Shown here piece by piece: positions 1,886 to 32,041 of a stretch of DNA of 35,105 nt; the first letter of the stretch is position 1, and each line of letters begins with the position of its first letter. The notes under the pieces are model-generated. The model was not told the DNA's origin. It made no database searches and saw only the letters and a list, made by a program, of their open reading frames with translations. The translations under genes were made by a program, and so were the position numbers. Source of the stretch: an uncultured Prevotellaceae bacterium (lineage in GTDB: Bacteria; Bacteroidota; Bacteroidia; Bacteroidales; Bacteroidaceae); NCBI GenBank assembly GCA_900315095.1, contig OMXS01000022.1:1-35105 (forward strand), written 5' to 3'.

Positions 1886-1906
1886 CAACCAACACCCATC
1901 ACCCAT
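1886..1906 (-). repeat. Heptamer array in the asnA leader
   Basis: Three period-7 units on the plus strand: CAACCAA, CACCCAT, CACCCAT. Unlike most arrays in this window it lies in a 5' leader rather than directly behind a stop codon. The CACCCAT word recurs at 15871-15884. Confidence 0.6.
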
Positions 1907-2223: not shown

Positions 2224-2251
2224 TATCAATTATCCATTATCAATTATCAAT
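2224..2251 (-). repeat. Heptamer array behind the YARHG gene
   Basis: Four period-7 units on the plus strand: TATCAAT, TATCCAT, TATCAAT, TATCAAT. Read in the gene's direction this is ATTGATA/ATGGATA. It starts about 10 bases after the stop codon and shares a 23-base identical stretch with the array behind pepT (within 5545-5574). Confidence 0.8.
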
Positions 2252-2260
2252 TCTACTCAG

Positions 2261-3280
2261 TTACTCGTCAGCCTCTTTCTCTGCTCTCTTTATCTGCTGG
2301 ATGTTGAGTTGTTCTGTCTCAGAGAGTTCGGCCACTACGGCGTTGTTGTTGCCGCGCGGACTATACCAAGGACAGCGGGAGAAGTACTCCTTCATCTCGG
2401 GAGTGCTGAACTGATAACCGTGACGTGCGTAGATTTCGTTGCGCATCAGCTGCAGTTCCTTCTTTGTGAACCAACCGAGCATTCCGTTGTAGAGCACGTT
2501 CTCGCTAGCGAAGTCGAAGCGCGATGTCTTGCCTGACGCTCCTGTATAGTTGGCTGGCAGCACATGATAGAGTTTTATGGTGGAATTTGTGCTCTCCCAG
2601 CTCTCTGTGTCTTCGCTGCTGATGTCCATCTTGGTGAGCAGCAGTCCATCGTCCTCGTGTTTGATGCTGTAGGCTGTGCCGTCACTGAACTGTATTATAT
2701 CAGACGGTGAGTCGTAAACAGTCTTTATCTCGAAGTTCTTCTTGCCTCCGAAGAGTCCTGTCACGCTGCGCTCGCCCTTAGAGAATGTAACGAGGTCGCC
2801 TTTAGAGTCGATGTACTCTCCTGCGAATACGATGTCGTTCTGCAGCGACTCTTCGAGGTCGTAGATGGTATTCCATCCGCCACCGGTTATTCCTGCGATG
2901 AACTCATGATAGACGTCCACTAGTTCGTTGCCGTCGTAGATGAGCAAGTATCGCTGTCCGTTGATTTTCTTCTGCTTTGCGGTAGGGTTCTTGGCGTTGA
3001 ACACGAGGTTTTGTCCTGAGTAGTAATACTCTGAGCCTACGGGCTCTCCGTTGTCGCCCTCCACCACTTTATAGTCGTTGCCAGAGCCTTTCAGTCCGAA
3101 GATTACGCCGCCCTCATGCAGCGTTCCACCCTGACCGTTGATGAAGTTTGGCTTTCCTGCCACATGATTGAGCACGAAGAATTGTGATGCGTTGCACCAT
3201 ACGGTGCCTGTCACCTTGTCTTGCTGCGCTGCTGCTATCATAGGCACGAGTGCGAGCAAGAATGTTATCAGTTTTTTCAT
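2261..3280 (-). CDS. Secreted YARHG-domain protein
   Basis: 339 residues. The N-terminus is a classic signal peptide (MKK, hydrophobic core, cleavage near AAAQ at residue 18), so the protein is exported. The C-terminus carries a YARHG domain (about residues 275-330): RNEIYARHGYQF, then an aromatic/Cys segment ending CPWYSPR. YARHG domains are extracellular modules thought to act at the cell surface or on peptidoglycan, but no enzymatic role is established. The central 230 residues are predicted beta-rich and I do not recognise them. The gene follows the secreted protein at 3299-3997 after only 18 bases and shares its promoter (4046-4078). A heptamer array and a terminator follow the stop. Confidence 0.85.
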   Translation of the reverse strand: MKKLITFLLALVPMIAAAQQDKVTGTVWCNASQFFVLNHVAGKPNFINGQGGTLHEGGVIFGLKGSGNDYKVVEGDNGEPVGSEYYYSGQNLVFNAKNPTAKQKKINGQRYLLIYDGNELVDVYHEFIAGITGGGWNTIYDLEESLQNDIVFAGEYIDSKGDLVTFSKGERSVTGLFGGKKNFEIKTVYDSPSDIIQFSDGTAYSIKHEDDGLLLTKMDISSEDTESWESTNSTIKLYHVLPANYTGASGKTSRFDFASENVLYNGMLGWFTKKELQLMRNEIYARHGYQFSTPEMKEYFSRCPWYSPRGNNNAVVAELSETEQLNIQQIKRAEKEADE

Positions 3281-3298
3281 AGCGATGTTTGTTTGTGT

Positions 3299-3997
3299 TT
3301 AGTCTATTTTCTTAAGTGTGAATCCATTGCCGTTCCACTCGTAGATGTAGTTTTGTCTTTCTGCGAGAGGCAGTTGTTCGCCGTCGGCTATTCTCACGTT
3401 GATGTTCTTGCCCACACGCGGCAGGGTGTAGATGGGAGCCCATCCGTTGGCGTCTTCGTTGCCCACAGAGCGAGCATACTCGATGCGCTCCTTGCTTGTG
3501 CGTCCGGGCTTAGTCCAGTCGATGGGGTCTATTTCCTTAGAGAATGGAGGATTGATACGCCTCATCTCCCTTTTGGCGTTATTGTATCGGTAGAAGATGA
3601 CGTAGCTCTCGTCTATTGACTCTCCTTGCAGGTTGAGGCGGTTGATGCCCACTATTTTCTCCTTCTTGTTGGCACAGTTCCAGTAGCACATCTCTATGCG
3701 CTCCAGCGAGCCGTCCTCTCCGCTTTCCAGATCGTAAGAGGCAAAACCGTTAGGGATGTCGCACACGGTCTCGGTGTTCACGAACTTGTGTGAGCCTGCT
3801 TTCACCTCGTTAGCAAACTGGATAAAGAAATCGTCGGCCTCCTCGTTGCGAGCATAGCTCTGCGCGAAGTCCTTGATGTTGGGCGCGGTGCCGCTGAATG
3901 TGACTTTCACTAAGTCGGGCTGTGCCATCGCTCCCTGTGCTACAACAAGCATTGCGATTGTCATAGCGATTCTAAAGAATTTCTTTTTCATGATCAT
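3299..3997 (-). CDS. Secreted protein of unknown function
   Basis: 232 residues with a signal peptide (MKKKFFRIAM core, cleavage near AMAQ about residue 26). Translation may begin at 3997 (MIMKKK) or at the second ATG at 3991. The second gives the more typical signal peptide. The mature part has no domain I recognise. It contains scattered Trp/Tyr and an acidic middle and ends in an Asn/Gly-rich beta-like segment. It is first in a two-gene unit with the YARHG protein, with an 18-base gap, which suggests the two act together in the envelope. A good TTTG/TAnnTTTG promoter lies ~50 bases upstream. Confidence 0.8.
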   Translation of the reverse strand: MIMKKKFFRIAMTIAMLVVAQGAMAQPDLVKVTFSGTAPNIKDFAQSYARNEEADDFFIQFANEVKAGSHKFVNTETVCDIPNGFASYDLESGEDGSLERIEMCYWNCANKKEKIVGINRLNLQGESIDESYVIFYRYNNAKREMRRINPPFSKEIDPIDWTKPGRTSKERIEYARSVGNEDANGWAPIYTLPRVGKNINVRIADGEQLPLAERQNYIYEWNGNGFTLKKID

Positions 3998-4045
3998 TTA
4001 GTTTTATGTTTTTAATATAATATTTGGTTTTCAGTCTATCTGATG

Positions 4046-4078
4046 CAAAGATAAGAACATTTTTCAAAAAAGACTCAA
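4046..4078 (-). promoter_or_regulatory. Promoter of the secreted-protein pair
   Basis: On the minus strand the -7 element is TATCTTTG (complement of 4046-4053). A TTGA-like -33 element lies ~21 bases upstream (4075-4078). Confidence 0.6.
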
Positions 4079-4114
4079 TAAGGAATAGAAAAGTTTAAAA
4101 AATGGAATAATTAT

Positions 4115-4145
4115 TTTGATATGCGGGCAAAATACCGTACCTTTG
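4115..4145 (+). promoter_or_regulatory. Promoter of tRNA-Arg (and perhaps pepT)
   Basis: TTTG (4115-4118), then exactly 19 bases, then TACCTTTG (4138-4145): a perfect match to the Bacteroidetes consensus. The tRNA starts 10 bases after the -7 element. No terminator is seen between the tRNA and pepT. Confidence 0.85.
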
Positions 4146-4155
4146 CGCAACGATT

Positions 4156-4229
4156 GGCTCCGTAGCTTAGTTGAATAGAGCGTCGGATTCCGGTTCCGAA
4201 GGTCCTGGGTTTGAGTCCCAGCGGAGTCA
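4156..4229 (+). tRNA. tRNA-Arg, anticodon CCG
   Basis: A 74-base cloverleaf. The acceptor GGCTCCG (4156-4162) pairs with CGGAGTC (4222-4228) with one G-T. The D stem is GCTT/GAGC. The anticodon stem TCGGA/TCCGA encloses loop TTCCGGT, with anticodon CCG at 4190-4192. The T stem is CTGGG/CCCAG with loop TTTGAGT. The discriminator base is A at 4229. CCA is not encoded. It reads CGG codons. Confidence 0.95.
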
Positions 4230-4317
4230 CATCATTAATTAAGGAGTTAGAAGGAGATACTTGAAAAAGTCAAACACTAACACTTCATTGAAGAACTTAC
4301 AAATCAATACTACCATA

Positions 4318-5541
4318 ATGAACTTACAAGAACGTTTTCTTAACTACACCAAGTTCGACACACAGTCGAGCGAGGAAAGCGAGACCGTGCCCAGCACATC
4401 GAAACAACTGATTTTTGCAAAATACCTTAAGGAGGAACTCGAGAGGGAAGGCCTCAGCGACGTCGAGATGGACGAGATGGGATACATCTACGCCACGCTG
4501 CCCTCAAACTCGAAGAAGAAGATACCCACAATAGGTTTCATAAGCCACTATGACACCAGCCCCGACTGCAGCGGAGCAAACATCAAGGCAAACATCGTGA
4601 GCAACTATAACGGCGGCGACATTGAGCTGTCGCCAGGCATCGTGAGCAGTCCGCAGAAGTTCCCCGAACTGCTGCATCATGTGGGCGAGGACCTTATCGT
4701 TACCGACGGCACAACGCTGCTGGGCGCTGACGACAAGGCTGGAATAGCCGAGATAGTGCAGGCGATGTGCTACCTGCGCGACCATAAGGAGATAAAGCAC
4801 GGAGATATCCGCGTGGGCTTCAACCCTGACGAGGAGATAGGTATGGGCGCGCACCACTTCGATGTGGAGAAGTTCGGCTGCGAGTGGGCATACACTATGG
4901 ACGGCGGCGACCTTGGCGACCTGGAGTTTGAGAACTTCAACGCCGCTTCGGGCAAGGTGACCATCAAGGGCGTGAGCGTTCACCCGGGATATGCTAAGGG
5001 CAAGATGATCAACGCCAACCGTCTGGCGGCAGAGTTCGCAAGCATGCTGCCTGCAGACGAGACTCCCGAAGAGACCGAAGGCTACGAGGGATTCTATCAT
5101 CTGCTGGGAATAGAGTCGAACATCGAGTCGGCAAAGATGAGCTATATCATTCGCGACCACGACCGCGACACCTTCGAGGACCGCAAGGTGTTCTTCACTC
5201 GCTGTGCAGAGAAGATGAACGAGAAATACGGCGAAGGAACGGTAACGGCTGTGGTGAAGGACCAGTATTACAACATGAAGGAGAAGATAGACCCCAACAT
5301 GCATGTAATAGACATCGTGCTGAAGGCGATGCAGGAGTGCGACGTTCCGCCAAAGGTGGAGCCTATTCGCGGCGGCACCGACGGTGCACAGCTGTCGTTC
5401 CGCGGTCTCCCCTGCCCCAACATCTTCGCTGGCGGTGTGAACTTCCACGGCCCTTACGAGTTCGTCAGCATCCAGGTTATGGAGAAAGCGGTGCAGGTAA
5501 TCGTCAAGATTTGCGAAATAACAGCTAATTATAACGACTGA
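4318..5541 (+). CDS. pepT: Peptidase T (tripeptide aminopeptidase, M20B)
   Basis: 407 residues from the ATG at 4318, whose [10 protein letters not shown] start fits the family. A TTG at 4261 with AAGGAG just upstream would add 19 residues and is the alternative. PepT removes the N-terminal residue of tripeptides using two zinc ions in the cytoplasm. Metal ligands and catalytic residues of the M20B family are all visible in order: [40 protein letters not shown] and the late [10 protein letters not shown]. The dimerisation domain lies between them. The length is normal. The tRNA-Arg promoter 5' of it is the only promoter I can see, so read-through from the tRNA is likely. Confidence 0.96.
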
Positions 5542-5544
5542 GAG

Positions 5545-5572
5545 AATTGACAATTGATAATGGATAATTGAT
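5545..5572 (+). repeat. Heptamer array behind pepT
   Basis: Four exact period-7 units starting 3 bases after the pepT stop: AATTGAC, AATTGAT, AATGGAT, AATTGAT. It ends 7 bases before the ATG of the next gene and is the left arm of an inverted pair around it. Confidence 0.85.
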
Positions 5573-5579
5573 AGAGGGT

Positions 5580-5984
5580 ATGTCTGAAAATAATTCGTAT
5601 CATCGTAAATACAATATAATTACAGACAAGAGCAAAGCCTTCGCCATAAGGATAGTTGGCTGTTACAAGTACCTGTGCGATGAGAAAAAAGAGTATATCC
5701 TTTCAAAGCAACTGATGCGCTCGGGAACAAGCATTGGCGCAAATGTCAGGGAAAGTTTCAACGCACAAAGCACGCCCGACTTCATAAGTAAGATAAGCAT
5801 CGCCTTAAAGGAAGCCGAAGAGTCGCTTTACTGGTTAGAGATTCTCCACGAGACAGGAACTTTGGAAGAAAAACTGTTCGACTCCATATACAACGATTGC
5901 GTTGAATTGGTCAAAATTCTTACGTCAATAGTTAAATCGAGCAAAGAGAAAGAAGAAAAAGACTCTAAAAACTATCCAAAATAA
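5580..5984 (+). CDS. Four-helix-bundle protein (23S rRNA intervening-sequence protein family)
   Basis: 134 residues from the ATG at 5580. An upstream TTG at 5568 lies inside the repeat array and is unlikely. The protein is all-helical with the signature region LSKQLMRSGTSIGANVRES (about residues 42-60), followed by FISKISIALKEAEESLYWLEIL, typical of the PF05635/TIGR02436 four-helix bundle family. Members occur inside 23S rRNA intervening sequences or as scattered solo genes, and the fold is shared with the Avd accessory protein of diversity-generating retroelements. No rRNA or reverse transcriptase is near. Function is unknown, possibly nucleic-acid binding. The gene sits as an isolated cassette between two related housekeeping-like genes and is flanked by inverted heptamer arrays. 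Confidence 0.85.
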   Translation: MSENNSYHRKYNIITDKSKAFAIRIVGCYKYLCDEKKEYILSKQLMRSGTSIGANVRESFNAQSTPDFISKISIALKEAEESLYWLEILHETGTLEEKLFDSIYNDCVELVKILTSIVKSSKEKEEKDSKNYPK

Positions 5985-5987
5985 TAA

Positions 5988-6070
5988 CATCTATCAATTG
6001 TCAATTAAAACATCTATCAATTGTCAATTAAAACATCTATCAATTATCAATTGTAAATTATCAATTAAAA
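5988..6070 (+). repeat. Heptamer-based array behind the four-helix-bundle gene
   Basis: Two exact 23-base units (5988-6010, 6011-6033) beginning CATCTATCAATTG are followed by a longer variant to 6070. Inside the units the words TATCAAT/TGTCAAT repeat at period 7. It begins 3 bases after the stop. Orientation is opposite to the array at 5545-5572; both arms share AATTGACAATTGATA when one is reverse-complemented. Confidence 0.85.
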
Positions 6071-6074
6071 AAGT

Positions 6075-8330: not shown

Positions 8331-8334
8331 TTGG

Positions 8335-8382
8335 ACAATTTCACTATTTTACGATTTCACTATTTCACGATTGGACAATTTT
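8335..8382 (+). repeat. Octamer array behind the antiporter gene
   Basis: Six exact period-8 units starting 4 bases after the stop: ACAATTTC, ACTATTTT, ACGATTTC, ACTATTTC, ACGATTGG, ACAATTTT. Related but less regular words continue to 8424. The first word joins the stop codon as TGATTGGAC. Confidence 0.85.
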
Positions 8383-8443
8383 TTTTATTTGACAATTTGA
8401 CAATTTCACTATTGGACAATTTTGGTTGTCACAAGATAAAAAG

Positions 8444-8471
8444 AAAATGCAGTCAGGAATGGCTGCATTTT
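8444..8471. terminator. Bidirectional terminator between convergent genes
   Basis: AAAATGCAGTC (8444-8454) pairs with GGCTGCATTTT (8461-8471), an 11-bp stem with a 6-base loop and A/T flanks on both sides. It serves the antiporter (plus) and the lipoprotein gene (minus). Confidence 0.85.
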
Positions 8472-8484
8472 ATGTTTTAATTAC

Positions 8485-8548
8485 AAATAGTAAAATCGTG
8501 AAATCGTAAAATCGTGAAATAGTGAAATAGTGAAATCGTCCAATCAAC
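8485..8548 (-). repeat. Octamer array behind the lipoprotein gene
   Basis: Eight period-8 units on the plus strand: AAATAGTA, AAATCGTG, AAATCGTA, AAATCGTG, AAATAGTG, AAATAGTG, AAATCGTC, CAATCAAC. The lipoprotein stop lies 4 bases further. Read on the minus strand it is the same GATTGGAC/GATTTCAC family as the array at 8335, so the two form an inverted pair around the terminator. Confidence 0.85.
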
Positions 8549-8551
8549 ACG

Positions 8552-9319: not shown

Positions 9320-9335
9320 AAATGTTATTTTGCTG

Positions 9336-9343
9336 CAAAAATA
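9336..9343 (-). promoter_or_regulatory. -7 element of the lipoprotein gene
   Basis: TATTTTTG on the minus strand, 17 bases upstream of the first ATG. I see no good -33 TTTG at the expected distance, so the call rests on the -7 element alone. Confidence 0.45.
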
Positions 9344-9386
9344 CGATTTTTTTCTGTTAAAAGGTAGGTGTTTGGAAAAAAAACAC

Positions 9387-9394
9387 TAAATTTG
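9387..9394 (+). promoter_or_regulatory. -7 element of the carboxyltransferase gene
   Basis: TAAATTTG, 57 bases upstream of the ATG. The nearest TTTG is too close, so the -33 element is weak or absent. Confidence 0.45.
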
Positions 9395-9451
9395 CATTCA
9401 TAAACCCTTAATAGTACATTTAAGTTTTACATATCACTCAAATCAAAGACT

Positions 9452-11227
9452 ATGAAAAAGAGAATCCAGTTCAGTCTCGTATACCGAGACATGTGGCAGA
9501 GCTCCGGTAAGTTCCAGCCACGCAAGGACCAGTTGGAAAGAATCGCGCCAGCCATAATCGACATGGGAGTCTTCGACCGTGTGGAGACCAACGGCGGTGC
9601 CTTCGAACAAGTGAACCTCCTGGCTGGCGAGAACCCTAACCATGCGGTGAGAGCTTTCTGCAAGCCGTTCAACCAGGTGGGAATAAAGACACACATGCTC
9701 GACCGCGGACTCAATGCGCTCCGTATGTACCCCGTGCCCGACGACGTGCGCGAGCTGCAATACAAGGTGAAGCATGCACAGGGCGTTGACATTCCACGTA
9801 TCTTCTGCGGACTCAACGACACACGCAACATCATACCTTCCATCAAGTGGGCAAAGGCAGCGGGAATGACACCGCAGGCAACTCTCTGCATCACCACAAG
9901 CCCCGTCCACACCGTGGAGTACTATTCTAACATCGCCGAAGAACTGATCGCTGCAGGAGCAGAGGAGATATGCCTCAAGGACATGGCGGGAATAGGACAG
10001 CCGGCACTCCTCGGAGCACTCGTCAAGGCCATCAAGACAAAACACCCCGACATCATCATACAGTATCACGGGCACTCTGGCCCCGGACTCTCTATGGCCA
10101 GCATCCTCGAGGTGTGCAACAACGGCGCCGACGTCATCGACACCGCCATCGAGCCACTCTCCTGGGGTAAGGTGCACCCAGACATCATCTCCGTGCAGTC
10201 GATGCTCAAGAACGAGGGATTCGAGGTGAAAGAGATAAACATGAAGGCGTACATGCAGGCACGCACACTCACACAGGAGTTCATCGACGACTGGCTCGGC
10301 TACTTCATCAACCCAGGCAACAAGCACATGTCGTCGCTGCTGCTCGGATGCGGACTGCCAGGAGGAATGATGGGCTCCATGATGGCCGACCTCGCGGGAA
10401 TGCACCGCACCATCAACGCCCTGCGCGCTAAGAAGGGCGACCCCGAGTACAGCACCGACGAACTGCTCGTCAAGCTCTTCGACGAGGTGGCATACGTATG
10501 GCCGCGCGTGGGCTACCCACCACTCGTGACGCCGTTCTCACAGTACGTCAAGAACATCGCACTCATGAACCTCCTCACCATAGAACAGGGCAAGGGACGC
10601 TTCGTGATGATGGACGACTCAATGTGGGGAATGATTCTCGGCAAGTCAGGAAAGATTCCTGGAGAGATAGCACCCGAACTCAAGGAACTCGCAGCAAAGC
10701 AAGGCAGAGAGTTCACCGATGCCGACCCGCACACACTCATCCCCAACGCACTCGACGACTTCCGCAAGGAGATGGACGAGAACGGATGGGAATACGGACC
10801 AGACGACGAGGAACTCTACGAACTCGGTATGCACCCCGAGCAGTACCGCGACTTCAAGAGCGGCATAGCAAAGAAACGCATGCTCGCCGACCTGCAGAAG
10901 GCAAAGGACGCGAAGCTCGGCTCGAAACTCTCGCCAGAGGAACTGTCAGCATTCAAGCACGCCAAGGCAGACGCACTCGTGGCTCCTGTCAAGGGACAGA
11001 TATTCTACGAGTTCAACGGCGACGGCGAGTGCGCACCATGCGTCGAGCCGTTCATCGGACAGCACTACGACGAGGGACAGCCGTTCTGCTACATCCAGAC
11101 ACCATGGGGAGAGATTGAGACCATCCCCGCAGCACTGGGCGGAAAACTCGTTGAGGTGGTTGCAAAGCAAGGCGCAAAGGTACAGAAGGGACAAACCCTC
11201 GCATACGTAGAGCGCGACCACGAATGA
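9452..11227 (+). CDS. oadA: Oxaloacetate decarboxylase alpha / pyruvate carboxylase B-like carboxyltransferase with a degenerate biotinyl domain
   Basis: 591 residues. Residues ~1-460 are a biotin-dependent carboxyltransferase TIM barrel. Visible parts are RDMWQS with D13 (metal site), the active-site lysine K176 in CLKDMAG, and H206/H208 in YHGHSGPG. The usual RDxHQS histidine is Trp here. Residues ~506-591 have a biotinyl/lipoyl-like layout (LVAPVKGQ... IPAALGG... AKVQKG), but the EAMKM biotinylation motif is replaced by TPWGE around 550-554, so no biotin-carrying lysine is present. The family moves CO2 between biotin and pyruvate/oxaloacetate or an acyl-CoA. Here biotin would have to come from another protein, or the activity has changed. 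The gene appears monocistronic, with a hairpin at 11349-11381 behind it. Confidence 0.85.
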   Translation: MKKRIQFSLVYRDMWQSSGKFQPRKDQLERIAPAIIDMGVFDRVETNGGAFEQVNLLAGENPNHAVRAFCKPFNQVGIKTHMLDRGLNALRMYPVPDDVRELQYKVKHAQGVDIPRIFCGLNDTRNIIPSIKWAKAAGMTPQATLCITTSPVHTVEYYSNIAEELIAAGAEEICLKDMAGIGQPALLGALVKAIKTKHPDIIIQYHGHSGPGLSMASILEVCNNGADVIDTAIEPLSWGKVHPDIISVQSMLKNEGFEVKEINMKAYMQARTLTQEFIDDWLGYFINPGNKHMSSLLLGCGLPGGMMGSMMADLAGMHRTINALRAKKGDPEYSTDELLVKLFDEVAYVWPRVGYPPLVTPFSQYVKNIALMNLLTIEQGKGRFVMMDDSMWGMILGKSGKIPGEIAPELKELAAKQGREFTDADPHTLIPNALDDFRKEMDENGWEYGPDDEELYELGMHPEQYRDFKSGIAKKRMLADLQKAKDAKLGSKLSPEELSAFKHAKADALVAPVKGQIFYEFNGDGECAPCVEPFIGQHYDEGQPFCYIQTPWGEIETIPAALGGKLVEVVAKQGAKVQKGQTLAYVERDHE

Positions 11228-11265
11228 ATTGATAATTGATAATTGATAATTGACAATTGACAATT
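11228..11265 (+). repeat. Heptamer array behind the carboxyltransferase gene
   Basis: Period-7 units beginning directly after the TGA: ATTGATA three times, then ATTGACA twice, then ATT. It is the same ATTGAYA family as the arrays at 2224, 5545 and 5988. Confidence 0.85.
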
Positions 11266-11334
11266 CTTTGCTTGCAAAGCGGCATAGCCGAGCAGATAAT
11301 TCTTTGCTTGCAAAGCGGCATAGCCGAGCGGACA
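11263..11334 (+). repeat. Two tandem 36-base units with an internal hairpin
   Basis: Copy 1 is 11263-11298 and copy 2 is 11299-11334. They differ only at the end (AGATA versus GGACA). Each contains the palindrome CTTTGCTTGCAAAG and ends in a heptamer word, so the unit looks like a heptamer plus a 29-base insert. No spacers, so not a CRISPR array. Confidence 0.85.
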
Positions 11335-11348
11335 ATTGACAGAGAGAT

Positions 11349-11381
11349 AAACACTAGGCTCAAGTTCCGGGCCTGGTGTTT
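11349..11381 (+). terminator. Probable terminator of the carboxyltransferase gene
   Basis: AAACACTAGGC (11349-11359) pairs with GCCTGGTGTTT (11371-11381), an 11-bp stem with one G-T. The following bases are only moderately T-rich. Confidence 0.55.
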
Positions 11382-11390
11382 GTCTTGTAA

Positions 11391-11418
11391 ACCACAAACA
11401 ATAAACCACAAACCGTAA
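11391..11418 (+). repeat. Heptamer array, ACCACAA family
   Basis: Four period-7 units: ACCACAA, ACAATAA, ACCACAA, ACCGTAA. It lies ~40 bases before the HD-domain gene. Confidence 0.7.
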
Positions 11419-11423
11419 ACATC

Positions 11424-11447
11424 CCTCCCCTCGGGGAGGTTAGGAGG
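11424..11447 (+). promoter_or_regulatory. C-tract/G-tract element over the HD gene's Shine-Dalgarno
   Basis: CCTCCCC (11424-11430) is complementary to the adjacent GGGGAGG (11433-11439). Part of the same C-tract can instead pair with the AGGAGGGGG (11442-11450) that serves as a ribosome binding site 8 bases before the ATG at 11456. The alternatives are mutually exclusive. The strong Shine-Dalgarno is unusual here. Confidence 0.35.
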
Positions 11448-11455
11448 GGGTTCCC

Positions 11456-11992
11456 ATGAACTATCAGGCAATCATAGACAAATACTACGCTGACGACAAC
11501 CAGCTGCGCCACATACTCCTCACCCACAGCCGTGCGGTGGCCGACTTCGCCCTGCGCGTTGCCGACCGTCACCCCGAGCTCCACATCGACCGCCAGTTCG
11601 TGGAAGAGGCCGCCATGCTCCATGACATCGGCATATTCCGCTGCGACGCACCAGGCATCTGCTGCCACGGCACAGAGCCATACATCTGTCACGGCCGCAT
11701 CGGCGCCCTGCTCCTTCGCGAGGAAGGATACCCCCGGCATGCACGCGTGTGCGAGAGACACACCGGCGCAGGACTCACCCTCGACGACATCGTCGCGCAG
11801 CAGCTGCCACTGCCCCGCCAGTCGTTCCTTCCCGAGACCATCGAGGAACGCCTGATATGCTATGCCGACAAGTTCTTCTCCAAGACACGCCTCGACCGTG
11901 AGAAGACCTTCGAGCAAGCCGTAGGCTCACTCATGAAGTTCGGCGCAGCCGGAGTCGACCGTTTCCGCCAGTGGCACCAGATCTTCTCTTAA
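11456..11992 (+). CDS. HD-domain phosphohydrolase
   Basis: 178 residues. It carries the metal-binding HD pattern: H in LTHSRAVADFAL (~25), the HD pair in AAMLHDIGIF (~56), further His in CHGRIGALLL (~77) and ERHTGAGL (~97), and the late Asp in CYADKFFSK (~140). These are the ligands expected for a metal-dependent phosphohydrolase acting on a nucleotide or other phosphate in the cytoplasm. The substrate cannot be inferred. The length is normal for the small uncharacterised HD proteins common in Bacteroidales. It stands between the carboxyltransferase gene and lptD, with its own leader containing repeats and a C/G-tract element. Two small hairpins follow it. Confidence 0.88.
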   Translation: MNYQAIIDKYYADDNQLRHILLTHSRAVADFALRVADRHPELHIDRQFVEEAAMLHDIGIFRCDAPGICCHGTEPYICHGRIGALLLREEGYPRHARVCERHTGAGLTLDDIVAQQLPLPRQSFLPETIEERLICYADKFFSKTRLDREKTFEQAVGSLMKFGAAGVDRFRQWHQIFS

Positions 11993-12034
11993 CCATATTA
12001 TATATTATATACAAAGCCAACATAATGTATAATT

Positions 12035-12079
12035 AACTGATTTTATCAGTTCGTCCCTTTCTTGACTTCTGCAAGAAAG
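12035..12079. other. Two consecutive small hairpins between the HD gene and lptD
   Basis: AACTGA (12035-12040) pairs with TCAGTT (12046-12051), and CTTTCTTG (12057-12064) pairs with CAAGAAAG (12072-12079). Neither is followed by a T-tract on the plus strand, so a terminator role for the HD gene is possible but weak. Confidence 0.45.
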
Positions 12080-12140
12080 AGAAAAACCGTTAAACCTTAT
12101 AAAATCGGGGCAAAGGGTGGGGAAAAATAAAAATAAGTTG

Positions 12141-12148
12141 TAACTTTG
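12141..12148 (+). promoter_or_regulatory. -7 element of lptD
   Basis: TAACTTTG, ending 17 bases before the lptD ATG at 12166, so the expected leader is only about 10 bases. No clear TTTG at -33. Confidence 0.5.
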
Positions 12149-12165
12149 CAGCCAAATATGCTCTG

Positions 12166-15015
12166 ATGAGAAGAAATTCGTTGATTATACTTATGCTTTG
12201 CGCCTTCATTTTCATGATGGCCGCTGTCAACGTGCCTATGCTCAAGGGGACATATAACAAGAGGGTGAACGACTCCATCGCCGCCGACTCTGACTTCATT
12301 GAGACCTTGCTCGCACCGAGGATTCCGGCAATAGAGGAGCCGGAGGACACGGCTGGCGGGGACTCTATAGTGATGGACTCGCTGAGACAGGCCATCATGA
12401 TGCACAACAAGATTATAGACGACTCGATACGACTGGACAGCATCAACCGCAGCAAGTCTAACGGCATTGACGCGCCTGTGGACTACGCTGCCGACGACTC
12501 TATAGTGTACTACGCCTCTAAGCGCACCGCTTATCTCTACGGCAACACTAAGGTGAAGTACGAGAACATGGACCTTGCGAGCGAGAGGGTGTACATCAAC
12601 ATGGACAGCAACGTGGTGCATGCCATGGGCGTGACCGACACGCTGGGCAACAGCGACGGCACGCCGGTGTTCAAAATGGGCAACGACCAGTATGAGAGCA
12701 AGGAGATGGCATTCAACTTCAAGACGAAGAAGGGATACATCAGCGATGTGTACACCGAGCAGGAGGACGGGTTCCTTACCAGCGAGCGCTCGAAGCGCGA
12801 CTCCTCGGGAGTGCTGTACCTGGAGCACGGACGATACACGACATGCGACGAGGAGCATCCGGACTTCTACATCGCCCTGTCGAGGGCTAAGGTGAGACCA
12901 GGCAAGGACGTGGTGTTCGGACCTGCTTACCTCGTGGTGTGCGACGTGCCGCTGCCTCTCGCCATCCCTTACGGATTCTTCCCGTTCACGAAGAAATACT
13001 CCAGCGGTTTCATCATGCCGTCGTACGGCGACGAGAGCACACGCGGCTTCTACCTGAGAGACGGAGGTTACTACTTCGCCATCAGCGACAAGATGGACCT
13101 CAAGCTGATAGGTGAGATATACACCAAGGGCTCGTGGGGAGTGACGGCAACGTCGAACTATCGCAAACGCTACAAATACAGCGGCACGTTCCTCATGAGC
13201 TACCAGGACACGAAGAACGGCGAGAAGGGAATGCCCGACTTCTACGAGACAGAGAGTTTCAAGATTCAATGGAACCACTCGCAGGATGCCAAGGCGAACC
13301 CCTTCACCACGCTGTCGGCACGCGTGAACTTCGCCACATCGAGTTTCGAGCGCAACAACCTCACGTCAATGTATAACCCGCAGGCGATGACACAGAGCAC
13401 GCGTACTTCATCGGTGAGCTGGAACACCACGTTCTCGAGTCTGGGAATGACGCTGAGAGGAACGGTGAACCTCGACCAGAACATGCGCGACACCACGATA
13501 GAGATGACTCTGCCGAGCCTCGACGTGTCGGTGGCTCCGTTCTACCCCTTCAAGCGCAAGCACTCGGCGGGAAAAGAAAAGTGGTACGAGAAGATTAACC
13601 TCAGCTACACAGGACAGATACGCAACTCGATAAAGACCAAGGAGAGTAAGCTGCTGCACTCGAACCTCACAAAGGACTGGAAGAACGGCATAAGCCACAC
13701 CGTTCCCATCAAGGCGAGCTTCACGCTGTTCGACTACCTGAACGTTAACCCCTCGTTCACCATCACCGACCGCATGTACTTCAACAAGACGATGCGCTCG
13801 TGGGACGAGGTGGAGCAGAAAGAGGTGCGCGACACCCTGAACGGATTCTACAACGTGTACAACTGGTCGATGGCGCTGAACCTCTCGACAAAGCTCTACG
13901 GTATGTATATCCCGTCGAAGAAAATCTTCGGCGACAAGATAGTGGCTATAAGGCACGTGCTCACGCCTACGGTGTCGTTCAACTACGCACCAAGCTTCAC
14001 TAACTCGCGCTACGGCTTCTTCGAGCAGTACGCCAAAACGGATGCCGAAGGCAACGTCACAATGGTGGACTACTCGCCATTCGACGGTTATCTCTACGGC
14101 ACATCCAACAGGACGAAGACAGGCTCGGTGAACGTAACGCTGGGCAACAACGTAGAGATGAAGATACGCTCGGACAAGGACTCCACGGGATTCAAGAAAC
14201 TGAGCATCATCGACGACCTGTCGCTGAACATGGGATACAACATGGCCGACAAGGAGAGACCTTGGAGCGACCTTAACGTGGGCATCCGACTGAAATGGTG
14301 GAAGAACTATACCTTCTCGATGAACGCGCGCTTCGCCACCTATGCCTACGACCTGGACGAGAACGGGCACCCCTACGTGGGAACACACACCGAGTGGGGA
14401 CGCGGAAGATTCGGACGATTCCAGGGAATGTCGCAGACCTTCAACGTGACGCTGAACCCCGAAAAACTGAAGAAATGGTTCGGAGAAGGTGGAGACGATG
14501 ACGACGACAAGGACACCGACAACGACGACGAGGGAATAGACACGAACATAGAGAGCAACATAGACGACGATATGGAGAAAGGCGCGCATGCCGCCAAGAA
14601 ACGGAAATCCAAGGCTGAGACCGACGACGACGGGTATATGGCGTTCTCTATGCCGTGGTCGCTCACCATTGGCTATGGTATCTCGATGCGCGAGAATGTT
14701 GGAGGAAAGTTCAACACCAAGACCATGCGCTACGGGTATAAGTTCACGCAGACGCTGAACCTCTCGGGAAACATACGCATCAGCGACGGATGGAACATAC
14801 AGGTAAGAAGCGGCTATGACTTCGAGCACCACAAGATAAGTCTGACCACAGCATCGCTCAGCCGCGACCTGCACTGCTTCAACATGTCGTGCTCGGTGGT
14901 GCTGGCGCCATACACCAGTTATAACTTCACGTTCAGGTGCAACGCCGCAACGCTCACCGATGCGCTGAAGTATGACAAACGCTCGAGTTACACGAATGCC
15001 GTGCAATGGTACTAA
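12166..15015 (+). CDS. lptD: LPS-assembly protein LptD (Bacteroidetes type)
   Basis: 949 residues. An N-terminal hydrophobic segment (residues ~5-25) serves as signal peptide. It is followed by an Asp/Ser-rich linker and an OstA/LptA-like jellyroll (about 115-290), with AYLYGNTKVKYENMDLASERVYINM and later LPLAIPYGFFPF typical of the LptD family. The rest is a large beta-barrel of alternating aromatic strands that ends ...SSYTNAVQWY. LptD inserts lipopolysaccharide into the outer leaflet. Residues ~775-820 are an unusual Asp-rich insert (runs of D, then a KKRKSK basic patch), presumably an exposed loop. It is followed by genes for a glycosyltransferase and PlsC, which fits an envelope-lipid gene set. 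Confidence 0.9.
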   Translation: MRRNSLIILMLCAFIFMMAAVNVPMLKGTYNKRVNDSIAADSDFIETLLAPRIPAIEEPEDTAGGDSIVMDSLRQAIMMHNKIIDDSIRLDSINRSKSNGIDAPVDYAADDSIVYYASKRTAYLYGNTKVKYENMDLASERVYINMDSNVVHAMGVTDTLGNSDGTPVFKMGNDQYESKEMAFNFKTKKGYISDVYTEQEDGFLTSERSKRDSSGVLYLEHGRYTTCDEEHPDFYIALSRAKVRPGKDVVFGPAYLVVCDVPLPLAIPYGFFPFTKKYSSGFIMPSYGDESTRGFYLRDGGYYFAISDKMDLKLIGEIYTKGSWGVTATSNYRKRYKYSGTFLMSYQDTKNGEKGMPDFYETESFKIQWNHSQDAKANPFTTLSARVNFATSSFERNNLTSMYNPQAMTQSTRTSSVSWNTTFSSLGMTLRGTVNLDQNMRDTTIEMTLPSLDVSVAPFYPFKRKHSAGKEKWYEKINLSYTGQIRNSIKTKESKLLHSNLTKDWKNGISHTVPIKASFTLFDYLNVNPSFTITDRMYFNKTMRSWDEVEQKEVRDTLNGFYNVYNWSMALNLSTKLYGMYIPSKKIFGDKIVAIRHVLTPTVSFNYAPSFTNSRYGFFEQYAKTDAEGNVTMVDYSPFDGYLYGTSNRTKTGSVNVTLGNNVEMKIRSDKDSTGFKKLSIIDDLSLNMGYNMADKERPWSDLNVGIRLKWWKNYTFSMNARFATYAYDLDENGHPYVGTHTEWGRGRFGRFQGMSQTFNVTLNPEKLKKWFGEGGDDDDDKDTDNDDEGIDTNIESNIDDDMEKGAHAAKKRKSKAETDDDGYMAFSMPWSLTIGYGISMRENVGGKFNTKTMRYGYKFTQTLNLSGNIRISDGWNIQVRSGYDFEHHKISLTTASLSRDLHCFNMSCSVVLAPYTSYNFTFRCNAATLTDALKYDKRSSYTNAVQWY

Positions 15016-15018
15016 GGA

Positions 15019-15067
15019 CATTGAACTTTGAACTTTGAACTTTAATCTTTTAACTTTGAACATTGAG
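15019..15067 (+). repeat. Heptamer array behind lptD
   Basis: Seven exact period-7 units starting 3 bases after the stop: CATTGAA, CTTTGAA, CTTTGAA, CTTTAAT, CTTTTAA, CTTTGAA, CATTGAG. Looser words of the ACTAAAC/AACCACT type continue towards the next ATG at 15110. Confidence 0.9.
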
Positions 15068-15109
15068 TTTCCAAACGACTAAACAACCACTCCCCTAAAC
15101 CACTAAGAT

Positions 15110-15856
15110 ATGGAGGACAGCATTGTTATCATTCCGACCTACAACGAGAAGGAAAACATAGAGAAGATAATCCGCGCGGTTTTCGGTCTCGAGAAAGTGT
15201 TCCATATTCTCGTCATCGACGACGGTTCGCCCGACGGCACCGCCGCCATCGTTCACTCGCTCATAGACAACGAGTACAGCGACAGGCTCTTCATCATAGA
15301 GCGCTCGGGGAAGCTCGGGCTCGGCACCGCCTACATCACAGGATTCAAATGGGCGCTGGAGCACAACTACGAGTACATCTTCGAGATGGACGCCGACTTC
15401 AGCCACGACCCCAACGACCTGCCACGGCTCTACAGCGCCTGTGCCGACGAGGGCTACGACCTCGCCATCGGCTCGCGCTACGTCAGCGGAGTGAATGTAG
15501 TGAACTGGCCCATCGGACGAGTGCTGATGAGTTATTTCGCCTCGAAATACGTTCGCATAGTGACAGGATTCAATGTCCACGACACCACCGCAGGATTCAA
15601 GTGCTACAAGCGCAGAGTGCTGCAGACCATAGAACTAGACAAGATACGCTTCAAGGGCTATGGCTTCCAGATAGAAATGAAATACACCGCCTATAAGATA
15701 GGGTTTAGAATAAAGGAAGTCCCCGTAATCTTCGTGAACCGCAGGGAGGGCGTTTCCAAGATGAGCGGCGGCATCTTCGGCGAGGCTTTCTTCGGCGTGA
15801 TGCGGCTGAGATGGGACGGCTGGACAAGAAAATACCCTCCATTACCAAAGTCATAA
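15110..15856 (+). CDS. Polyprenol-phosphate mannosyl/glycosyltransferase (DPM1-like, GT2)
   Basis: 248 residues, the size of soluble DPM1-type enzymes. GT-A motifs are in order: IIPTYNEKENI (~5-15), VIDDGSPDGT (~36-45), the metal-binding EMDADFSHDPNDL (~90-102), GSRYVSG (~120) and the KGYGFQIEM region (~185). No C-terminal membrane helices are present, so this is the short form. The family transfers a sugar from a nucleotide sugar to polyprenyl phosphate at the inner leaflet. The donor sugar cannot be read from sequence. It lies 94 bases after lptD and is followed by plsC after 34 bases made of heptamers, probably in one transcript. Confidence 0.92.
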   Translation: MEDSIVIIPTYNEKENIEKIIRAVFGLEKVFHILVIDDGSPDGTAAIVHSLIDNEYSDRLFIIERSGKLGLGTAYITGFKWALEHNYEYIFEMDADFSHDPNDLPRLYSACADEGYDLAIGSRYVSGVNVVNWPIGRVLMSYFASKYVRIVTGFNVHDTTAGFKCYKRRVLQTIELDKIRFKGYGFQIEMKYTAYKIGFRIKEVPVIFVNRREGVSKMSGGIFGEAFFGVMRLRWDGWTRKYPPLPKS

Positions 15857-15891
15857 CACCTATCACCAAACACCCATCACCCATCACTATA
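15857..15891 (+). repeat. Heptamer array filling the glycosyltransferase-plsC spacer
   Basis: Five period-7 units: CACCTAT, CACCAAA, CACCCAT, CACCCAT, CACTATA. The first begins at the base after the stop codon and the last ends on the A of the plsC ATG, so the spacer consists of nothing else. Confidence 0.9.
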
Positions 15892-16652
15892 TGATACATT
15901 TTCTCTATTGCATATACCAGATATTGGTTTTCATACCGCTGCTGATACTGTCTACAATCATCACGGCGCTCACCGTAGGAATAGGCACCGCCATAGGCGA
16001 CGCCAGCTACTGGGGCTACTATCCAGGCAAGTGGTGGGCGAAGTTTATCTTGGCCGTGCTCTTCATTCCCGTGAAGGTTGAGGGGCGCGAGAACCTGGTG
16101 AAGGGACAGAGCTACGTCTTCGTCTCCAACCATCAGGGTGCATTCGACATCTTCCTTATCTTCGGCCACCTGTGCCGCAACTTCAAGTGGATGATGAAAC
16201 ACCAGCTGAAGAAGATTCCGTTTGTGGGATATGCATGCGAGAAGAGCAACCAGATATTCGTGGACAAGCGCGGTCCAAGCAAGATAAAACAGACATACGA
16301 GAAAGCGCGCGACATACTGAAGCATGGCATTAGTGTGGTGGTGTTCCCTGAGGGAGCGCGTTCGTTCACCGGTCACATGGGCACATTCCGCCGAGGTGCG
16401 TTCATGCTCGCCGACGAACTGCAACTGCCTGTGGTGCCGCTGACCATCAACGGGTCGTTCTACGTTATGCCTCGCACAAAAGACTGGCATTTCGTTTACT
16501 GGCACCCTCTCACGCTGACTATTCACAAGCCGATAGAGCCTACAGGGCACGGCGCGGACAACATAAAGAACGCGATGGACAAGAGTTATACCGCCATCAT
16601 GTCAGCGCTGGCACCAGAACATCAAGGCTTTATCGAGAATCCTGACCAGTAG
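15891..16652 (+). CDS. plsC: 1-acyl-sn-glycerol-3-phosphate acyltransferase
   Basis: 253 residues. The N-terminus has a membrane segment (~8-32). The acyltransferase motifs follow: SNHQGAFDIF (NHx4D, ~79-88), the GYACEKSNQIFVDK region (~115), FPEGARSF (~150) and LPVVPLTINGS (~180). PlsC makes phosphatidic acid from lysophosphatidic acid at the inner membrane. The family also includes lipid-A- and ornithine-lipid-type acyltransferases, so the exact acceptor is an inference. It is the last gene of the lptD-side cluster and is convergent with the metallophosphoesterase. The 112-base spacer between their stops is filled by octamers. Confidence 0.92.
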   Translation: MIHFLYCIYQILVFIPLLILSTIITALTVGIGTAIGDASYWGYYPGKWWAKFILAVLFIPVKVEGRENLVKGQSYVFVSNHQGAFDIFLIFGHLCRNFKWMMKHQLKKIPFVGYACEKSNQIFVDKRGPSKIKQTYEKARDILKHGISVVVFPEGARSFTGHMGTFRRGAFMLADELQLPVVPLTINGSFYVMPRTKDWHFVYWHPLTLTIHKPIEPTGHGADNIKNAMDKSYTAIMSALAPEHQGFIENPDQ

Positions 16653-16656
16653 GTTT

Positions 16657-16768
16657 ATTGGACGATTGGACGATTTCACTATTTTACAATTTCACGATTG
16701 GACGATTTCACGATTGAACAATTGTAAAATTGTGAAATTGTAAAATCGTAAAATAGCATAATTGTCAA
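16657..16768. repeat. Fourteen in-phase octamers filling a convergent spacer
   Basis: Units on the plus strand, all starting AT: ATTGGACG x2, ATTTCACT, ATTTTACA, ATTTCACG, ATTGGACG, ATTTCACG, ATTGAACA, ATTGTAAA, ATTGTGAA, ATTGTAAA, ATCGTAAA, ATAGCATA, ATTGTCAA. The first eight read in the direction of plsC and the last six in the direction of the opposite gene, yet the 8-base phase never breaks. The last unit contains the complement of the opposing TGA stop (16765-16767). Confidence 0.92.
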
Positions 16769-17937
16769 TTTTTCCTGTGTAATGTAATGACGACAACCTC
16801 GGGTTTCAGTCCTATACGGAAAGGAACGAAACCGCTGATGCCTGTGGTCACGAAGAGCGCGCGGCCGCTCGCATCCTCATACATGCCGTCGTACTCGTTG
16901 CAAGTGATGGCTGCAGGAGAGACACCTGCGATGTTCACCTGTCCTCCATGTGTGTGACCGCTGAGCGTCAGCTGTGCTGTTGTTCGCGGCAGAACGGTGC
17001 GCTGCCATGATGCGGGGTCGTGTTCCAGCATGATGGTGAATGCCCCCTGCGGCACGCCAGCCATCGCCTTGTCGGGATCTCCCTTCGTAGGAATGGGCAC
17101 CTTGCCGTCGTTGTGCATTCCAGCAATGAAGATGCTGTCGCCGCCGCGGCGTACGGTGAAGTTCTCATCCAATAGCAAATGCCACCCCATCTCTTCCTGA
17201 CGACCGAGCATCAGCTGATGGTTGTGTTTTGTTGTGGCAGAATCTGCACGCAGATAGTCGCCGTAGTCGTGGTTGCCGAGAACCGAGAAGACTCCGTCGT
17301 CGGCATTCAGTCGCTTCATAATAGGTATGGCAGGAAGCAGTTCGTCGGGGTGCATGTTCTGCAAGTCTCCCGTAAACGCTATCATATTTGCATGCTGGGC
17401 ATTCAGCGAGTCGACCACGATAGCCAACTGTCCTATGCTTCCCCAGATGTAACTTCCCACATGGGCATCACTGAAAAGAGCAACGCGATAGCCGTCGAAG
17501 GCGGGCGGCAGCTGTGCGGAATAGTAGTCCACACGGCGAACATTCACTCCCTTGCCACCGAAGAAAGCACCGTAGATTACCAACAGCAGACACATCACTC
17601 CCAACACCACGCCCACTCTGCGTCCGTTATTGCGGCTCGTCCATCCCTTGCGTTTGCACCAGGCACCTATCAGTGAGCATAAGGCAAACACCGCGGCAGG
17701 CACAATGAAAACGCCGAGCAACAACAGATAGAGGAACAACTGCCATGTCTCTATCGGAGCGAAACTACGCAGTTGAGCCAGCAGCAGAGTGTAAACAAGC
17801 ATTCCGATGCACGGCAGCCACAACAGCACATGCTTCCATTTGCTACCGCGCCAGCGTTCCTTCATCATGCCGTAGTCGATATAAAGGAACGGCAGCACAA
17901 TGACCAGTATCAGTAGTATGAATATTCTTGCTATCAT
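16765..17937 (-). CDS. Membrane-anchored metallophosphoesterase
   Basis: 390 residues. The N-terminal ~140 residues hold about four membrane helices (~3-20, 38-58, 68-95, 107-125). The catalytic domain (~150-390) carries the calcineurin-like motifs: FSDAHVGS (DxH), FTGDLQN (GDxxx), LGNHDYGD (GNHD), EHDP and GHTHGGQ. The architecture matches YaeI/YkuE-type phosphoesterases, whose substrates are unknown or lipid-linked. The soluble domain probably faces the cytoplasm or periplasm side of the inner membrane. It is last in the likely minus-strand operon behind the MetH activation-domain gene, from which it is separated by 169 bases of repeats without a visible promoter. Confidence 0.9.
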   Translation of the reverse strand: MIARIFILLILVIVLPFLYIDYGMMKERWRGSKWKHVLLWLPCIGMLVYTLLLAQLRSFAPIETWQLFLYLLLLGVFIVPAAVFALCSLIGAWCKRKGWTSRNNGRRVGVVLGVMCLLLVIYGAFFGGKGVNVRRVDYYSAQLPPAFDGYRVALFSDAHVGSYIWGSIGQLAIVVDSLNAQHANMIAFTGDLQNMHPDELLPAIPIMKRLNADDGVFSVLGNHDYGDYLRADSATTKHNHQLMLGRQEEMGWHLLLDENFTVRRGGDSIFIAGMHNDGKVPIPTKGDPDKAMAGVPQGAFTIMLEHDPASWQRTVLPRTTAQLTLSGHTHGGQVNIAGVSPAAITCNEYDGMYEDASGRALFVTTGISGFVPFRIGLKPEVVVITLHRKN

Positions 17938-17953
17938 AGTTCGTATTTTTATG

Positions 17954-17981
17954 GAGGAGGGAGGAAAGAGGAAGGAGGAGG
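17954..17981 (+). repeat. Purine-rich heptamer array
   Basis: Four period-7 units: GAGGAGG, GAGGAAA, GAGGAAG, GAGGAGG. It is largely complementary to the pyrimidine-rich end of the array at 18079-18106, so the two can pair across ~100 bases. Confidence 0.8.
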
Positions 17982-18022
17982 GAGAACACTACTGGGAGCA
18001 CTACTTTAAGCATTTCGCCCTC

Positions 18023-18106
18023 TGCTCTATGCTCTCTGCTCTATGCTCTCTGCTCTATGCTCTCTGCTCTATGCTCTCTCCTCCTTCCTCTCTCCTCCTT
18101 CCTCCT
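18023..18106 (-). repeat. Twelve pyrimidine-rich heptamers abutting a stop codon
   Basis: Plus-strand units: (TGCTCTA TGCTCTC) four times, then TCCTCCT, TCCTCTC, TCCTCCT, TCCTCCT. They end at 18106 and the stop codon of the minus-strand gene begins at 18107, so on the transcript the array starts at the first base after TAA. The array is 84 bases, exactly 12 x 7. Confidence 0.92.
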
Positions 18107-31975: not shown

Positions 31976-32041
31976 GCAATTATATACTATCTGACCTTCT
32001 CTTTTTTTATCCTGTACCAACCAAAATCAGCACAGCACCTT

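Follow-up and report, generated by a model that had tools for sequence, protein, structure and literature searches.

The short tandemly repeated repetitive (STRR) sequences of cyanobacteria are intergenic tandem heptamers. Heptamers are over-represented in Xanthomonas and Nostoc according to the available excerpt of one study (PMC4692102), and the excerpt of MacGregor 2015 (PMC4679880) describes TAACTGA arrays in Beggiatoaceae, cyanobacteria and Bacteroidetes, proposes them as regulator-binding sites and cites earlier evidence by which heptamers are the most frequent long repeats in the majority of genomes. The Coxiella intervening sequence (IVS) is presented, in the excerpted account (PMC4990558), as a selfish element of 23S rRNA that ends in inverted repeats and is excised by RNase III, where tandem heptamers, whose copy number varies between strains, lie just upstream of the S23p open reading frame (ORF). 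The protein family in question, 23S_rRNA_IVP (IVP, intervening-sequence protein), has been listed near cas genes in two further works, also available in part (PMC10910872, PMC3936711). Among open-access titles and abstracts, a coverage that leaves novelty unproven, none links IVP or S23 genes with tandem arrays in intergenic DNA; heptamers next to an S23p ORF are described in the Coxiella IVS paper alone, in its excerpt. Here, a stretch of 35,105 nucleotides from an uncultured Prevotellaceae bacterium (assembly GCA_900315095.1, contig OMXS01000022.1), referred to as the window, was analysed. It holds an IVP gene between two inverted heptamer arrays, and arrays of this kind are very likely the inverted ends of IVP mobile elements, of derivatives resembling miniature inverted-repeat transposable elements (MITEs), and remains of such ends.

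The IVP gene of the window matches TIGR02436 (E 7.5e-31; 106.6 bits against a cut-off of 24) and PF05635 (E 7e-27; 94.2 bits against a cut-off of 33.8), and a profile search identified 2gsc and 2rld as solved homologues (E 6.8e-34 and 2.4e-41, respectively). A solved IVP relative from Xanthomonas is a pentamer according to the excerpt of PMC4990558. Residues Q44, R47, S51, N55 and E81 are invariant among 30 aligned IVPs, and for 20 of 30 the bAvd profile PF22296 gives a further match (E <=1; best 5e-11). IVP is the sole gene of the window element, in which NCBIfam and Pfam revealed no transposase domain. No rRNA match was found in the window or at 20 other IVP loci, the window element being located between pepT and an antiporter gene. 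The family is present in 223 of 296 sampled Bacteroidota genomes and has 12 matches in the genome of the window (hereafter the own genome). Two of these 12, L051 and L052, are longer, match the family weakly and in part, and lack inverted arms at the threshold used; together with similar long weak matches in the genomes G028 and G044 they form a subfamily, and L051 carries 9-mer repeats inside and behind the gene. The ratio of nonsynonymous to synonymous substitution rates (dN/dS) was 0-0.25 in nine of 13 IVP pairs, with dS above 2 in three of the nine and saturated in the other four; judging from these ratios, IVP genes are under purifying selection.

The flanks of the gene were compared by scoring inverted repeats between the 150 nt on its 5' side and the 150 nt on its 3' side, a score of at least 18 being taken as positive. 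Inverted flanks were found at 31 of the 41 IVP loci of the own genome and its genus, versus 7 of 318 other own-genome genes, and two of those seven are themselves IVP genes. Arrays on both sides (score of at least 10) were present at 25 of the 41 IVP loci versus 16 of the 318 other genes. The arms of the window element score 23. In the own genome, the IVP flanks are mostly inverted tandem arrays whose word differs from gene to gene, and sometimes the period differs too (6, 7, 8 or 10).

The same arrangement extends beyond the genus. Considering all loci, 94 of 161 reached a score of 18 versus 98 of 1800 mismatched pairs, in which the 5' flank of one locus was set against the 3' flank of another. 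By set, the positives were 9/12 in the own genome, 22/29 in the genus, 9/13 in siblings, 10/29 in the phylum sample, 37/64 in named genomes and 7/14 on cyanobacterial plasmids. The cyanobacterial set supplies 45 of the 98 positive mismatched pairs (45/300), since the words of these plasmids are alike and their mismatched flanks therefore score often. Regarding the composition of the sets, the 80 named loci returned were reduced to 64 by leaving out L132, L153 and L182 and removing 13 with an in-frame stop; L089 was dropped from the phylum sample, as were the 10 weakest or partial of 25 sibling rows, and the 14 cyanobacterial loci come from 24 plasmid records. L113, identical to L065 in words, scores and identities, and L263, a near-copy of L262, are counted in the 161 and left out of the mismatch and stop tests. 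The flank counts cover neither the 16 fetched loci L245-L260 nor 20 loci from the search for the gene-less family described below.

Arrays were scored on both sides at 84 of 147 loci, with the same period in 71. At 46 of these 71 the 5' word equals the reverse complement of the 3' word with at most one mismatch, versus 86 of 2204 pairs from different loci. Among 218 arms the period is 7 in 111 and 8 in 84, and the 5' arms are poor in C (9.6%, with 26.9% G). Inverted heptamer or octamer arms were observed among the 64 scored named loci in Clostridia, four lineages of the candidate phyla radiation (CPR), Bosea, Desulfosarcina, WOR-3, Acetothermia and Cloacimonadota, and no arms in Bowmanella, Alcanivorax and one Clostridia locus. 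A Methanophagales archaeon and a Chloroflexi locus present an array only on the 5' side; compared as inverted repeats, their flanks reach scores of 18 and 16. On cyanobacterial plasmids, arrays (score of at least 8) lie on both sides of 11 of 14 IVP loci and on at least one side of all 14, with period 7 in all except one. The sequence-only reading of the window, which had set its arrays apart from the cyanobacterial heptamers, thus drew a contrast that does not hold.

Comparison with relatives revealed that whole elements are present in some genomes and absent from others. Between the peptidase T (PepT) stop and the antiporter start there are 533 nt in the window versus 6 nt in the sibling G044, whose PepT is 95% identical. 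Across 30 genus loci, where PepT is upstream, this junction has either no array, inverted arrays with no gene between them, or solo arrays with different words. At the junction of the own-genome locus L041, the IVPs of the siblings G044 and G028 come from subfamilies different from that of L041 and have different words, each being similar to members of its own subfamily at other places; across the three siblings, a single junction thus carries three IVPs and three words. Two plasmids of Nostoc ATCC 53789 share an operon, with an IVP element between genes 1 and 2 on one and a different element between genes 2 and 3 on the other, each plasmid being empty where the other is filled; a possible TTCTA target duplication was seen there by eye, in one instance. 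Among 117 pairs of orthologous sibling spacers, some own spacers being compared with more than one sibling, an array is present in both members of 15, in only one of 28 and in neither of 73 (one pair was set aside because of Ns). The array-bearing spacer of the one-sided pairs is longer by a median of 66 nt (longer in 26 of 28), and pairs without arrays show a median length difference of 4 nt. Furthermore, the inverted octamer arrays at 8335-8545 enclose a centre that is flipped in G028, as judged by eye. Two of four orthologous elements of the own genome and G028 have IVP genes that are 99.5% identical within flanks of 87-92% identity (where aligned), as would be expected from recent transfer or conversion; in the other two the divergence equals that of the flanks. 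At the level of genome comparison, array-ended elements linked to IVP are thus shown to be present or absent between relatives.

Copies without the gene also exist. Contig C26 of the own genome holds three inverted pairs of TAGAATG type with a homologous 54-nt centre, one of them reversed. This centre begins with TATGATTA and ends with ATCATA, and these inner borders recur in L049, the IVP element that shares the word. A DNA search with a count by hand gave eight full-length places in the own genome, 10 in G028 and five in G044; G041 has only short arm matches, and the remaining 77 of the 81 genus genomes, with up to 10 candidates scored in each, gave no match at E <=1e-5. By these borders and this word, the gene-less family appears as a MITE-like derivative of an IVP element. 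Separately, C26:70477-70716 and C46:26841-27055 are AT-rich palindromic elements sharing a 97-nt centre (99% identical) with different short tandem ends (AGTCAACAA vs CGACAATT), and this pair is probably another MITE family.

The array signal itself was confirmed in the spacers. Eight of the nine heptamer arrays listed from the sequence alone were recovered by Tandem Repeats Finder (TRF; period 7 or 14, score of at least 30), and the ninth, 1886-1906, was not listed. Autocorrelation was computed on 435 kb of the own genome (the window plus 400 kb; the whole genome is 3.24 Mb), with genes called by a custom script, not a standard gene finder, and compared with 20 dinucleotide shuffles. Lag 7 is the top excess in post-stop DNA (z 13.3), pre-start DNA (z 16.2) and all intergenic DNA (z 23.8), with peaks also at 14 and 21; lags 2 and 3 are likewise above the shuffles. 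Exact lag-7 runs of at least 10 number 30 in intergenic DNA versus 0.0 in shuffles, and the coding sequence of the same 435 kb shows no lag-7 excess over three shuffles. Contrary to the sequence-only reading, the period is not always exactly 7: a second peak stands out clearly at lag 8 (z 16.6 in intergenic DNA), and octamer arrays lie at 8335-8545, 16657-16762 and 32040-32094. By best period, the spacer arrays of the 435 kb divide into 38 of 7, 14 of 14, four of 21, 15 of 8 and 10 of 16. A distinct class of intergenic direct repeats has period 22 (17 arrays, e.g. AACAAAGTTAATAACATAGTCG; C46:183668-183871 and C26:204041-204247).

Nor are the words wholly unrelated. The arrays at 2224, 5545 and 11228 and the previously unlisted 5986-6067 share one word (ATTGATA / TATCAAT), and CACCCAT appears twice in the original list of nine. 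Three TATCAAT units with up to two mismatches have 44 overlapping matches, corresponding to about 24 places in the genome (counted by hand), and the reversed-word control has none. In the genome G045 there are 60 overlapping matches to the reversed control word versus none to the forward word; apparently another array family dominates that species. The placement just after stop codons is real in that post-stop DNA has the lag-7 excess, and incomplete in that arrays lie before starts too, often as inverted pairs. Among 95 arrays, same-word pairs are inverted in 20 cases and direct in four; two of the 20 are IVP flanks, and some pairs share an array.

Moreover, the word is related to the protein it surrounds. 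In a comparison restricted to IVP pairs whose flanks are not homologous, the period is the same in 88% of 66 pairs at 60-75% identity, versus 36-43% below 60% identity, and the word is shared with at most one mismatch in 14 of 59 pairs, versus 3-6% below 60%. Above 75% identity the word is shared in 3/3 pairs and the scored period in 1/3. Judged from these pairs, the word changes fast, yet not independently of the protein. Solo arrays of period 7 or 8 fit the same pattern: 33 of 65 in the 435 kb match an own-genome IVP word with at most one mismatch, versus 11.7 ± 3.0 for shuffled and 9 for reversed words, and IVP words from outside the genus give no excess among these arrays (32 vs 38.6). In G028, 13 of 22 solo arrays match its own IVP words, versus 3.4 ± 1.5 shuffled and 5 reversed.

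These results bear on the origin that the sequence-only reading had proposed for the arrays, namely one generating mechanism that copies in 7-base steps with free sequence, or selection on length. A single process behind many words is retained, and changes by whole units are seen (35 nt, or 5 x 7, in the spacer 15016-15109 relative to G044). The free-sequence copier and length selection are not: many words belong to element families tied to IVP, the period of 7 or 8 (sometimes 6, 9 or 10) tends to follow the protein, and presence or absence in siblings shows insertion of whole elements instead.

Concerning the position beside stop codons, IVP is co-directional with both neighbours at 121 of 146 loci (13 more were unjudgeable), and at 74 of 113 the start of the 5' arm falls in the range from 5 nt ahead of the upstream stop to 11 nt past it. 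Because the spacers within operons are short, an insertion tolerated in one of them will abut the stop on one side and the following start on the other; the placement can be explained without special targeting, although such targeting may still occur. Stop codons within the words were also considered as the cause of period 7. Words of the 5' arms contain a stop in 100 of 132 cases versus 77.8 ± 4.7 in shuffled words; this candidate was rejected as unspecific because the antisense strand is enriched too (60 vs 45.7). In these words ATG is depleted (12 vs 28.7) and AGT enriched (58 vs 29.5).

The features of the window are collected in Table 1. In addition, a 36-bp repeat with a hairpin-like core (TTGCTTGCAAAGCGGCATAGCCGAGC) at 11259-11337 breaks up an ATTGATA array; the corresponding spacer of G044 and G028 lacks it.

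Table 1. Arrays and IVP element of the window, with their state in related genomes.
Feature	Position	Strand	Remarks
Complete IVP element	5542..6074	+	Between peptidase T (stop 5541) and CPA2-type antiporter (start 6075)
5' arm, heptamer array ATTGATA / ATTGACA / ATGGATA	5542..5573	+	
Four-helix-bundle / 23S rRNA IVP gene	5568..5984	+	ATG at 5580; 5568 is an upstream TTG
3' arm, inverted TATCAAT array within a 23-bp higher-order repeat	5986..6067	+	
Solo ATTGATA array	2224..2252	-	8 nt past the stop of gene 2261-3280 (-); undetected in siblings G044 and G028
Solo ATTGATA/ATTGACA array	11227..11265	+	At the gene 9491-11227 stop; G044: shorter; G028: degenerate
Degenerate heptamer/14-mer array TAAACCA	11388..11420	+	Nearest IVP word of the genus set at 2 mismatches
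Octamer arrays (ATTTGACA / ATTTCACT)	8335..8421	+	Word of own IVP L050 (0-1 mismatch); half of an inverted pair
Octamer array, inverted partner of 8335..8421	8485..8545	-	Centre between halves inverted in sibling G028
Octamer array palindrome between convergent genes	16657..16762		G044: 51-nt spacer without array
TTGAACT heptamer array	15018..15066	+	G044 spacer 35 nt (five units) shorter
CACCCAT-type heptamer array	15854..15887	+	G044: CCAAACGA-type repeats; G061: 19-nt spacer without array
GGAGGAA heptamer array	17953..17984		Inverted partner of the C-T-rich array on its right
TGCTCTA/TGCTCTC 14-mer array and CTCCTTC array	18017..18104		G044: whole spacer 17 nt
Octamer array, one mismatch off the L050 word	32040..32094		Siblings G028 and G044 without array
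Two to three CACCCAT units	1886..1906		TRF score <30

On this reading, a complete element consists of a C-poor 5' arm of tandem 7- or 8-mers, an IVP gene of about 115-145 codons and a 3' arm with the same word reverse-complemented. IVP may recognise its word in both arms and may be needed for the copying or moving of the element, or of a gene-less copy in trans; we infer that it drives the movement. The tandem units would then expand, shrink and degenerate through slippage, and elements would survive mostly in short operon spacers, hence just after stops and before starts. A wider reading is advanced tentatively, its chances being somewhat short of even: a transposase-free mobile class in many phyla and apparently in archaea, whose four-helix-bundle protein would recognise end words of 7-8 bases and mobilise itself and gene-less copies, with word and protein co-evolving. 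This one class would cover the heptamers of cyanobacteria, Beggiatoaceae, Xanthomonas and Bacteroidota, the ORF-bearing 23S IVSs and the CRISPR-listed IVPs.

Several observations weigh against an IVP element as the source of the arrays. To our knowledge, IVP/S23 proteins have no known function, and NCBIfam and Pfam profiles recognise no nuclease or other catalytic domain in IVP. The controls with other genes were drawn only from the own genome. Sixty-seven of the 161 loci are below the inverted-repeat threshold, including 19 of the 29 of the phylum sample; 16 of the 161, including 13 from the named set, have flanks that resemble each other as direct repeats, and five of the 71 loci with equal periods have a direct word match with at most one mismatch. 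Copies of IVP within a genome are mostly not recent duplicates, the best pairs reaching 55% identity in the own genome, 74% in G028 and 83% in G044. No consistent target duplication was seen, and none is obvious at the window site, this being a point on which no systematic test was made. Thirty-two of the 65 solo arrays match no own IVP word, and in G044 one of three does versus 0.4 shuffled, too few to weigh. Across the genus, counts of ATTGATA arrays are not tied to the word of the best homologue of the window IVP (27 genomes, Mann-Whitney p 0.53); this test used 27 of 30 loci (L292 is the window itself, and L303 and L318 hold stops) and is weak because one IVP per genome was considered. Finally, the genome G018 has 61 overlapping ATTGATA matches and no detected IVP, which loss of the parent gene could explain.

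As to how IVP genes are distributed within genomes, two neighbouring IVPs that are 83% identical lie 1.6 kb apart in G044:C7 (L228/L230), and several IVP genes lie within about 35 kb on one contig, G041:C42; both cases suggest clusters or local duplication.

The rival that survives best, although we regard it as unlikely, is that IVP is an accessory or passenger protein and that another enzyme, such as a reverse transcriptase as with Avd, or a host or insertion sequence (IS) recombinase, moves the array-ended DNA. The match of 20 of 30 IVPs to the bAvd profile, the missing catalytic domain and the arrays of G018 are in line with it; the tracking of word by protein and the purifying selection argue for a specific role of IVP, and the window element has no second gene.

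A role in RNA is considerably less probable. The arms would pair into long hairpins in the 3' untranslated region or between cistrons, serving as terminator or RNase III site as in the 23S IVS, and the repeats would be kept for that. RNase III does cut 23S IVS RNAs from the terminal stem according to the excerpt of PMC4990558, and the co-directionality of IVP with its neighbours at 121 of 146 loci counts in favour. However, arm mismatches of G.U type (149) are fewer than those of A.C type (208) in 108 elements, the opposite of what selection for a sense-strand stem would leave, and on this covariation such a stem was rejected for the sense strand. Rfam families are absent at the arrays, tRNA being the only known RNA family that Rfam detects in the window, and many arrays are solo single arms.

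Polymerase slippage alone, in which 7-8-nt duplications arise and grow through the contact length of the polymerase (Mrazek and colleagues) without any element, has very little left in its favour. It has been proposed for the heptamers over-represented in many prokaryotes, according to the excerpts of PMC4679880 and PMC4692102, and the unit-step change of 35 nt at 15016-15109 suits it. Nevertheless, it fails to predict the inverted pairing (20 vs 4), the IVP between the arms, the words shared genome-wide, the conserved centres and the empty sites, and as the sole cause it is already strongly disfavoured. Least probable of all are host regulatory sites, the arrays being operators of RNA- or DNA-binding regulators of the IVP family without mobility, for which the position near stops and starts and the translational regulation proposed for TAACTGA in Beggiatoaceae (PMC4679880, in excerpt) could speak, since elements are present or absent between siblings, one junction holds different words, IVP lies between cas and other unrelated genes, and non-conservation of the elements with target genes is largely seen already.

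If IVP elements are indeed mobile, they would be very small mobile elements whose ends are of an unusual type and whose movement may involve a new chemistry, and seven-base repeats reported separately in very different bacteria would have one explanation. In the papers considered, heptamer repeats are ascribed to slippage or to regulator binding, and the link to IVP makes repeats and protein alike a testable system, in which the fast-evolving pairing of protein and word is open to study. On three cyanobacterial plasmids (L265, L267 and L268), IVP with heptamer or octamer arms lies between cas6 and cas4 or between cas10 and cmr3. Such armed genes between cas genes favour insertion over function; IVP genes inside cas or other operons may be insertions, and the published links between IVP and cas may be of this nature.

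Among known systems, the Avd accessory protein of diversity-generating retroelements is related to IVP through the profile similarity between IVP and bAvd; unlike those retroelements, the window element shows no reverse transcriptase or variable repeat, no dedicated reverse-transcriptase search having been made. REP/RAYT systems (REPtrons, built on repetitive extragenic palindromic sequences) and MITEs are similar in having dispersed short inverted elements with the word of the flanks of the parent gene, and in their gene-less copies. RAYTs are HUH (Y1) transposases, whereas no transposase domain was found in IVP and the ends of IVP elements are tandem arrays. The TAACTGA repeats are, likewise, heptamers beside starts and stops, and the flanks of the Phycisphaerae IVP locus L189 carry CAACTGATAACTGACAACT; these copies are direct, however, not inverted, and the comparison set holds no Beggiatoaceae genome. 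The STRR and the simple sequence repeats (SSRs) of Nostoc and Xanthomonas share the intergenic tandem heptamers, and 7 of 14 cyanobacterial-plasmid IVP loci have inverted flanks, a comparison that does not include the classical STRR words; the SSRs differ in that they are regarded as simple repeats and linked to no gene (PMC4692102, in excerpt). Cyanobacterial heptamers belong in part to the class of IVP elements, and the TAACTGA repeats of Beggiatoaceae may belong to it. The 23S rRNA IVS of Coxiella and Leptospira has the same protein family and terminal inverted repeats around an S23p ORF. It lies inside the 23S rRNA (helix 45 in Coxiella), whereas elements of the window type lie between protein genes, with arrays in both arms and gene-less derivatives. 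The best explanation is a mobile family of the IVS / S23-ORF element kind, new in its location outside rRNA, its array ends and its gene-less derivatives.

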